Assembly (NCBI GenBank): GCA_016787605.1 | Contig: JAEUUE010000121.1 | Location: 1-40,624 of the forward strand | Length of the DNA: 40,624 nt | Reading direction: 5' to 3' | Origin: Cyclobacteriaceae bacterium | GTDB taxonomy: Bacteria > Bacteroidota > Bacteroidia > Cytophagales > Cyclobacteriaceae | Shown here: one piece after another, positions 7,249-7,531 of the stretch | Numbering within the stretch: the first letter of the stretch is position 1 | How the letters are laid out: every line of letters starts with the position of its first letter | Program-made: the position numbers and the translations under genes | Notes under the pieces: model-generated | What the model was told of the DNA's origin: nothing | What the model saw: only the letters and a program-made list of their open reading frames with translations | Databases searched by the model: none

Positions 7249-7282
7249 GAACGGGAAATTGCCGGACGACAATTTCCCGTTC
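7249..7282 (-). terminator. Strong hairpin 3' of the tRNA-like RNA / in the ligase leader
   Basis: GAACGGGAAATTG (7249-7261) and CAATTTCCCGTTC (7270-7282) form a perfect 13-bp stem with an 8-base loop. On the minus strand it begins 3 bases after the 3' end of the candidate RNA at 7286-7479 and is followed by TTATTT, as expected for an intrinsic terminator. It also lies 52 bp upstream of the acyl-CoA ligase ATG, so it could instead attenuate read-through into that gene. Confidence 0.6.
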
Positions 7283-7285
7283 ATG

Positions 7286-7479
7286 CTGTAGAGGAAGGGC
7301 TCGAACCTTCACGGGGCAGTTAGCTGCAGGACAAGGAATTCACTTGAGTGGTCAATCCTGGTCCGCCGAGACGGACACTATCCTGAGTTTATCCCGTGTC
7401 CGAGATTCCGCTTCGGGCCTCCCGGACTTCCCCACCCCCGAGACAGGAGGGCTTGTCTGCCAATTTCAACACCCTACAG
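7286..7479 (-). ncRNA. Candidate structured RNA with tRNA-like ends and giant variable arm
   Basis: Read on the minus strand, 7479 to 7286 forms class-II tRNA-like arms. The acceptor pairs TGTAGGG (7478-7472) with CTCTACA (7293-7287), and one more C-G pair is possible. The D-arm is TTG / AAATTGGCAGA / CAA (7469-7453) with the invariant GG and flanking A residues of leucine-type tRNAs. An anticodon-like arm CCCTC / CTGTCTC / GGGGG spans 7451-7435. The T-arm is GAAGG / TTCGAGC / CCTTC (7310-7294). Between the last two arms, GGGG (7433-7430) pairs with CCCC (7316-7313) to close an insert of about 113 nt. The insert contains further hairpins: a 7-bp stem 7372-7378/7396-7402, and a long interrupted stem 7329-7337/7356-7364. 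No CCA is encoded. The loop would read GUC with U at position 37, so a conventional decoding tRNA is unlikely. Function is unknown. Confidence 0.5.
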
Positions 7480-7499
7480 TTTGTGCCTGATTGGTGGTT

Positions 7500-7531
7500 C
7501 AAAGTAACGCCGAAGTGCACCCTGAATTCAA
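7500..7531 (-). promoter_or_regulatory. Possible promoter of the tRNA-like RNA
   Basis: On the minus strand TTG (7531-7529) is followed after 22 bp by TACTTTG (7506-7500), resembling the Bacteroidota -33/-7 pair with one base missing in the -7 box and spacing 1-2 bp long. Its start site would be near 7493, about 14 bases upstream of the 5' end of the candidate RNA. The rest of the gap up to the Lrp gene at 7597 is AT-rich and shows nothing else I can name. Confidence 0.3.

Follow-up and report, generated by a model that had tools for sequence, protein, structure and literature searches.

A tRNA-like RNA family with a large variable domain in Bacteroidota and viral contigs, probably an aspartate-accepting carrier for GatCAB-dependent asparagine synthesis

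The window analysed here is a stretch of 40,624 nucleotides from a Cyclobacteriaceae bacterium (contig JAEUUE010000121.1). A tRNA-like RNA of 193 nt is located on its minus strand at 7478-7286, numbered from nucleotide 1 at 7478 to G73 at 7286 according to a sequence check (Table 1). The tRNA-like arms of the original prediction were confirmed, with coordinates and sequence as described. The acceptor stem (UGUAGGG/CUCUACA) has 7 bp including one G-U, the anticodon stem (CCCUC/GGGGG) includes one U-G, the D stem is UUG/CAA, and G73 is followed by C74. A GGGG/CCCC stem at the position of the variable arm encloses 113 nt, in which the internal-loop core reads GGAUAAA ... GCUAAC. The absence of an encoded CCA was correctly described but fails as a clue, because ARAGORN finds CCA encoded in no more than 6 of the genome's 33 ordinary tRNA genes, a count in which the tRNA-Asp gene runs into a contig end and cannot be judged.

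Table 1. Coordinates of the tRNA-like RNA, its parts and flanking sites in the window, and of a second kind of tRNA-like RNA in viral stretches
Feature	Position	Strand	Basis
tRNA-like RNA, mature part	7286..7478	-	R1 covariance model match and BLAST family
Acceptor 5' strand UGUAGGG (U1, G2), pairs with 7287-7293	7472..7478	-	helix 100% paired, n=43
Leu-type D arm UUG-AAAUUGGCAGA-CAA; no U after G18G19, i.e. without U20a	7453..7469	-	pairing and alignment
Anticodon arm CCCUC-CUGUCUC-GGGGG, tRNA-Asp-type loop with U37 and C38	7435..7451	-	loop comparison
Giant variable domain	7313..7433	-	GGGG/CCCC stem 7433-7430 with 7316-7313, inner helix
T arm GAAGG-UUCGAGC-CCUUC	7294..7310	-	pairing and alignment
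Acceptor 3' strand CUCUACA and discriminator G73	7286..7293	-	pairing, alignment, invariance count
Terminator-like hairpin, 15 bp	7249..7282	-	3 nt downstream of the RNA
Promoter-like site TTG ... TTACTTTG	7500..7531	-	one base off TAnnTTTG
Second kind of tRNA-like RNA	L270:7683-7830; L272:9980-10112; L272:4588-4706; L281:5065-5185; L281:5270-5412	-	viral stretches

The flanking hairpin is terminator-like and lies 3 nt downstream, as predicted, with 15 bp rather than 13. At the suggested upstream promoter there is a Bacteroidota-like box at 7507-7500, one base off TAnnTTTG, which we take to be the Bacteroidota-type promoter motif. Exact TAnnTTTG occurs within 60 nt upstream in 84 of 224 family members (shuffled mean 7.5), and terminator-like sites are present downstream of 128/223 members versus 14/224 upstream control stretches. 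The 5' flank of the acceptor stem has a conserved A at -4 (199 of 225 members) and at -2 (195), and position -1 is C or U in 181/225, where pairing with G73 is possible. A strongly conserved tail, CAGGTTATTTTGGGTTTATTGTTAATTGACTAA, was also observed before the terminator-like hairpin in Algoriphagus and Echinicola loci (L062, L088, L102, L106 and L150, downstream of the first copy).

Neither ARAGORN nor Rfam 15 explained the element: no tRNA was found in the window, and no Rfam family reached its gathering score there. A permissive Rfam scan turned up two unrelated matches at the locus, both at chance level and below gathering score, and similar scans of the loci of four relatives gave nothing reaching it. 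The folding energy of the single sequence is ordinary (z -0.16; 85 of 200 shuffles fold equally well), and the structure claim therefore rests on relatives. Several known identities were rejected. A Y RNA was dismissed, as the Ro60 family (PF05731) is absent from this genome (present in 15 of the 96 relatives searched); a tmRNA gave no RF00023 match at the locus, and a tmRNA substitute was discarded given the separate tmRNA in the genome. A missing decoding tRNA was likewise discarded, with 33 ordinary tRNAs found, including Asp(GUC), five Leu and four Ser.

A BLAST search with the element matched 73 of 96 relatives at E ≤0.1, weak matches included. From 57 distinct complete elements extracted, 43 were aligned, and pairs were counted over the named cloverleaf and variable arm (30 pairs, 1268 cells). 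Standard pairs occupy 96.8% of the 1268 cells, compared with 52-59% in slid controls. The covariance check proposed in the original prediction found two-sided changes at 20 of the 30 pairs against a shuffled mean of 12.2, a level reached by 0 of 500 shuffles. Based on these comparisons of related sequences, the tRNA-like structure is confirmed as real. Homologues and covariation, together with absence from Rfam 15, bear out the suggestion of a new RNA family, and homologues and covariation also back that of a non-decoding tRNA mimic.

The covariance model R1 was built from the 43 aligned members. It scores the window element at 115.3 bits (E 8e-33) in a search of its own genome, a score that is not independent, the element being one of the 43. 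Across 395 genomes of the phylum, members (108-195 nt) score at least 87 bits and other matches at most 64 bits; the only match in the gap, at 69 bits, is a short form in genome G069. tRNA-Leu genes score up to 64 bits, and all 20 of the 54-64-bit matches that were fetched were tRNA-Leu, so these were rejected as members. The RNA is present in 37 of the 98 sampled genomes that belong to the window's class and in three outside it (two unlisted genomes were identified by elimination as G424 and G483, both outside the class), in 69 of 96 relatives at E 1e-18, and in 5 of 149 genomes of another class. Within the window's genus, 45 of 58 genomes carry it by model, and several of the remainder are incomplete assemblies. 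Carriers among the matches listed from a pattern scan (at least 119 stretches) include Algoriphagus, Cyclobacterium, Echinicola, Dyadobacter, Emticicia, Aquirufa, Flammeovirga and Saprospiraceae. The family ranges over Cytophagales, Saprospiraceae, other Bacteroidota and 23 viral contigs, often within tRNA arrays. Two or more copies occur at 39 of 181 loci, often in close tandem.

The acceptor ends, D arm, anticodon loop and T arm are constant across the family. In the variable domain, the closing stem, the internal loop (RAUAAA opposite CUAAC in most members) and the inner helix are kept, and the remainder is very variable; long members span 108-199 nt. A short palindrome, TCCCGATAGCTATCGGGA, recurs with variants inside the variable domain in L016, L020, L024 and L252, with a related form in L013; this type of palindrome, which in L024 also sits in the D loop of an upstream, degenerate copy, looks like a small mobile repeat. 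The G069 short form has 76 nt without the variable domain (L246:339-414, minus strand) and is called tRNA-Asp(atc) by ARAGORN. It is likely misannotated, and some short copies elsewhere are probably also misannotated as tRNA-Asp, because ARAGORN calls the short forms tRNA-Asp. Short forms keep the UCUC loop end, and their acceptor ends are UGU/ACAG except in a 95-nt viral form (UGG/CCAG). An intron-containing tRNA, considered in the original prediction, does not agree with these data: the insert lies in the variable arm, where it has a conserved core and a covarying helix of its own, and it is normal-sized in three viral members and absent from the 76-nt form, with U37 kept.

The genomic context was little help in predicting function. 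ORF clustering gave lineage-specific neighbours alone, and neighbours were set aside as a guide. A link to the adjacent Lrp or acyl-CoA ligase genes did not hold up, with Lrp-like ORFs near 45 of 165 loci and ligase-like ORFs near 47 of 165, mostly in the window's genus. No conserved small gene was seen by eye between paired copies in Algoriphagus-type loci, and a plasmid search for the RNA gave no match. An apparently split RNA gene in G001 was explained by a contig break.

A degenerate pattern retrieved 23 IMG/VR contigs carrying the RNA, which are taken as phage on the basis of the IMG/VR collection. R1 scored 22 of them at ≥92 bits, with 19 distinct complete sequences; the remaining copy is cut by a contig end. 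Three copies are short forms with an ordinary variable arm, an identical 90-nt form on two contigs and a 95-nt form on one. At least three tRNA-type genes, and up to 22, were found by ARAGORN in 15 of the 23 fetched viral stretches, short forms counted too. A 636-kb phage record carries one RNA among tRNAs, identical to the copy on one IMG/VR contig. In four viral arrays an ordinary tRNA-Asp (CUGUCAC, G1) lies alongside the RNA (CUGUCUC, U1). One phage member has GGUAG in the D loop. Viral stretches also contain a second kind of tRNA-like RNA with the acceptor AGUCAGG/CCUGACU (GGUCAGG in one) and A73; it has a Leu-type D arm, a T arm and a long insert, and most copies are without a well-matched anticodon stem.

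A script gathered members by requirements on stem pairing and on the D and T loops, leaving anticodon-loop bases, pairs 1-72 and 2-71 and positions 73-74 free. In 225 distinct members (270 with duplicates), U35, C36, C38, G2-C71, G73 and C74 never vary. More than half of these came from pattern searches containing the loop, so the count was repeated on the 106 members found by BLAST or the model, methods that themselves favour similar sequences. In this set U35, C36, C38, G2-C71, U1-A72, G73 and C74 are invariant (106/106), which argues against a decayed tRNA, another reading in the original prediction. G34 is found in 99/106 and U33 in 87/106, and position 37 is U in 98 members, C in six and G in two, never A.

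The strong aspartate determinants are G73, G34, U35, C36 and C38, with G2-C71 as a minor one and G10 also listed (PMC9976931); determinants of tRNA-Asp for AspRS are also treated in PMC6523644. The loop of the RNA, CUGUCUC, differs from that of the ordinary tRNA-Asp in the window genome, CUGUCAC, by the change of A37 to U37. Two features count against reading the RNA as an AspRS substrate: G10 is found in just 14 of 225 members, and G1-C72, which is said to aid 3'-end positioning in E. coli AspRS, is replaced by U1-A72 in all 106. The window genome has an ordinary tRNA-Asp(GUC), a tmRNA and one AspRS above the family cut-off. A dedicated second AspRS was rejected: none of the listed genomes has two above-cut-off matches, and 89 of 96 have one. 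Weak second AspRS-family matches are presumably LysRS-like, judging by size. AspRS of RNA-positive genomes has Lys at E. coli position 81 in 51/51 rows, but Lys replaces Leu at position 30; these are anticodon-domain residues that we take to mark discriminating enzymes. In two genomes of 1.1-1.2 Mb (G078 and G093), the best AspRS-family matches are weak (E about 1e-30, frames of 460-470 aa); gatB is present there, and no tRNA-like RNA was found.

According to PMC9976931 and PMC4206432, GatCAB acts on Asp-tRNA-Asn through U1-A72 and is blocked on Asp-tRNA-Asp by G1-C72 and U20a. Among the 33 ordinary tRNAs of the window genome, U1-A72 occurs only in tRNA-Asn and tRNA-Gln. GGCAG, and thus a D loop without U20a, was found in 57/57 elements in a separate extraction, the 106-member set being unusable here because the script required GG(C/U)AG. 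GatCAB presence was scored by gatB alone, with a cut-off of E ≤1e-10 in the class sample; the gatB of the window genome matches at E 1.2e-148. Among 98 genomes of class Bacteroidia, 37 have the RNA and gatB, none the RNA alone, four gatB alone and 57 neither (Fisher p 7.5e-23, kinship ignored). The four with gatB alone are G069, which has the short form, G136, and G247 and G293, which belong to one genus and have weaker gatB matches (E about 1e-105). In 77 good relatives, the counts for both, RNA only, gatB only and neither are 61/1/10/5 by the model alone, and 64/1/7/5 once the short form and the halves at contig ends in G001 and G071 are included. G056 carries the RNA with no gatB match. Three good genomes of the window's genus (G005, G031 and G040) lack both RNA and gatB and have AsnB at 68-69% identity; on an AspRS tree of 60 relatives, this absence may be one loss.

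The association was also viewed on phylogenies. An AsnRS tree covered 37 of the 39 genomes searched for asparagine enzymes; among the 26 with GlnRS, to which the comparison was limited, RNA and gatB agree in 25, and five independent supported pairs are all concordant (sign test, median p 0.0625). For an AspRS tree of 60 relatives, the sign test was unable to reach significance. With so few independent transitions, neither sign test fell below 0.05. Beyond the class, gatB occurs commonly and the RNA only rarely, as seen from the three carriers in the 395-genome sample and the 5 of 149 in another class.

Asparagine enzymes were searched in 39 genomes picked by RNA and gatB state before their AsnB state was known (gatB was unsearched in G549). 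A close AsnB (61-69% identity) is present in 0/20 RNA-positive genomes, 9/12 genomes with neither RNA nor gatB, and 1/7 genomes with gatB only. AsnA was found in two of the 20 (G066, G086), one of the 12 and one of the seven, respectively, and GlnRS is missing from 5/20, 0/12 and 6/7. For the six gatB-only genomes without GlnRS, GatCAB would be needed for Gln-tRNA. GlnRS is present in 15 of the 20 RNA-positive genomes, with AsnRS in 14 of those, and 14 RNA-positive genomes have both enzymes and neither AsnA nor a close AsnB; GatCAB is therefore unneeded for either tRNA there. These 14 genomes match a class reported, in a 2014 survey (PMC4206432), as genera, Bacteroidetes among them, with AsnRS, GlnRS and GatCAB but without asparagine synthetase. 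An AsnRS-type match was found in 38 of the 39 genomes, distant (45-47%) in G373 and G549; at E 1e-25 the window's own genome (98.87% complete) gave none, owing to either an assembly gap or a real absence. Three genomes (G070, G112, G209) lack all of RNA, gatB, AsnA and close AsnB, and four (G058, G059, G063, G136) lack all of these except gatB; asparagine in such genomes must come by another route. Genomes of every kind also have more distant AsnB-like proteins (E 1e-25 to 1e-37), which might make asparagine.

Collectively, the structure, the conserved determinants, the co-occurrence with gatB and the lack of close AsnB suggest that the RNA is probably a dedicated, non-decoding, Asp-accepting tRNA for GatCAB-dependent asparagine synthesis. 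We would class it, as the likely assignment from its sequence features, as a GatCAB substrate RNA outside the tRNA-Asp family. In the proposed pathway, the cell's AspRS would read the Asp-type loop of the expressed RNA (U35, C36, C38 and usually G34) together with G73 and load aspartate. GatCAB would recognise U1-A72 and the missing U20a and amidate the RNA-bound aspartate to asparagine. U37, the large variable domain and the frequent absence of U33 would keep the RNA out of decoding, because Asn carried by an RNA with an Asp anticodon would be inserted at Asp codons. An enzyme would then release Asn, so that asparagine is made without AsnA or AsnB, and AsnRS would use the released Asn for ordinary tRNA-Asn. 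We know of no Asn-releasing enzyme here, and spontaneous hydrolysis is probably too slow for this step.

Other readings share part of this evidence. The RNA might be charged with Asp and amidated, with Asn passed to a non-ribosomal acceptor such as a lipid, a peptide or the cell envelope. This would draw on the same AspRS and GatCAB determinants and the same link to gatB, and the conserved core of the variable domain could bind a dedicated enzyme; it is unlikely all the same, since it leaves unexplained why close AsnB is missing from 20/20 RNA-positive genomes and present in 9/12 genomes with neither RNA nor gatB. We consider equally improbable a regulator or scaffold of AspRS and GatCAB (a decoy, charging sensor or transamidosome scaffold) that carries no amino acid. 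tRNA has a scaffold role in synthetase-amidotransferase complexes, and determinants for both enzymes are present in the RNA. Ternary complexes of synthetase, tRNA and amidotransferase are described in PMC9976931. Against such a role, the invariant acceptor end, with G73 and C74 in 106/106, suggests a reactive 3' end, and a regulator need not replace AsnB. The decoy or charging sensor of the original prediction stands as a weaker reading than a GatCAB substrate, given the gatB co-occurrence and the AsnB pattern.

That the RNA decodes as a tRNA-Asp variant with an enlarged variable arm is very improbable. G34, U35 and C36 would fit this, ARAGORN gives the label tRNA-Asp to the 76-nt form and to the three viral forms of 90-95 nt, and viral copies often lie within tRNA arrays. 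A decoding tRNA-Asp would be expected to have A37 and an invariant U33, neither of which is seen; U1-A72 replaces G1-C72, and an ordinary tRNA-Asp (CUGUCAC) is present in the host and in four viral arrays. Least probable of all is a tRNA mimic in phage-host conflict, for example an anticodon-nuclease decoy: its presence on viral contigs would agree with this, but most of the host genus has the RNA, which follows the gatB and AsnB pattern.

Compared with known systems, the proposed carrier RNA combines features of several tRNAs. It shares with tRNA-Asp (GUC) the loop CUGUCNC, G73 and G2-C71, but has U37 instead of A37, U1-A72 instead of G1-C72, no U20a, a Leu-type D arm and a large variable domain. 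The D arm and the position of the variable arm resemble class II tRNA-Leu, from which it differs in its Asp-type loop, in the length of its long forms and in having G73, not the A73 of tRNA-Leu. The non-proteinogenic tRNA-Gly of Staphylococcus serves peptidoglycan and is likewise used outside translation; it has no large inserted domain and works with another enzyme system. Allo-tRNAs and selC* tRNAs are unusual tRNAs with long variable arms, some with a GUC anticodon, and have 8/4 or 9/3 stems (PMC7609411), whereas the RNA here has 7/5. The closest system is tRNA-dependent Asn synthesis by a non-discriminating AspRS and GatCAB on tRNA-Asn in Deinococcus, Thermus and Bdellovibrio, in which Asp is likewise placed on a U1-A72 RNA and amidated by GatCAB; PMC4206432 also proposes this route where GlnRS and AsnRS exist without AsnA or AsnB. 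There the carrier is ordinary tRNA-Asn with a relaxed AspRS, whereas here a distinct RNA, non-decoding and bearing an Asp loop, would take that part. No literature on this RNA or on a dedicated carrier was recognised in titles and abstract openings, with most subscription papers and all bioRxiv preprints outside the search. The pathway is already known, and the dedicated non-decoding carrier, for which we found no description, would be the new element.

If this proposal is true, the roles of tRNA as decoder and as biosynthetic carrier, thought to belong to one molecule, would sit on separate molecules, and an RNA gene would have its sole role as a carrier in amino-acid biosynthesis. It would explain how asparagine could be made with one AspRS in Bacteroidota that have AsnRS and GlnRS and no close asparagine synthetase, and the retention of GatCAB in genomes with both synthetases would become directly testable. 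A large RNA family would be added beyond Rfam 15, and phages would be shown to carry a metabolic RNA. We see even chances that a large part of Bacteroidota makes asparagine on a translation-incompetent tRNA, and that large phages carry its gene within their tRNA arrays as a non-protein metabolic booster.
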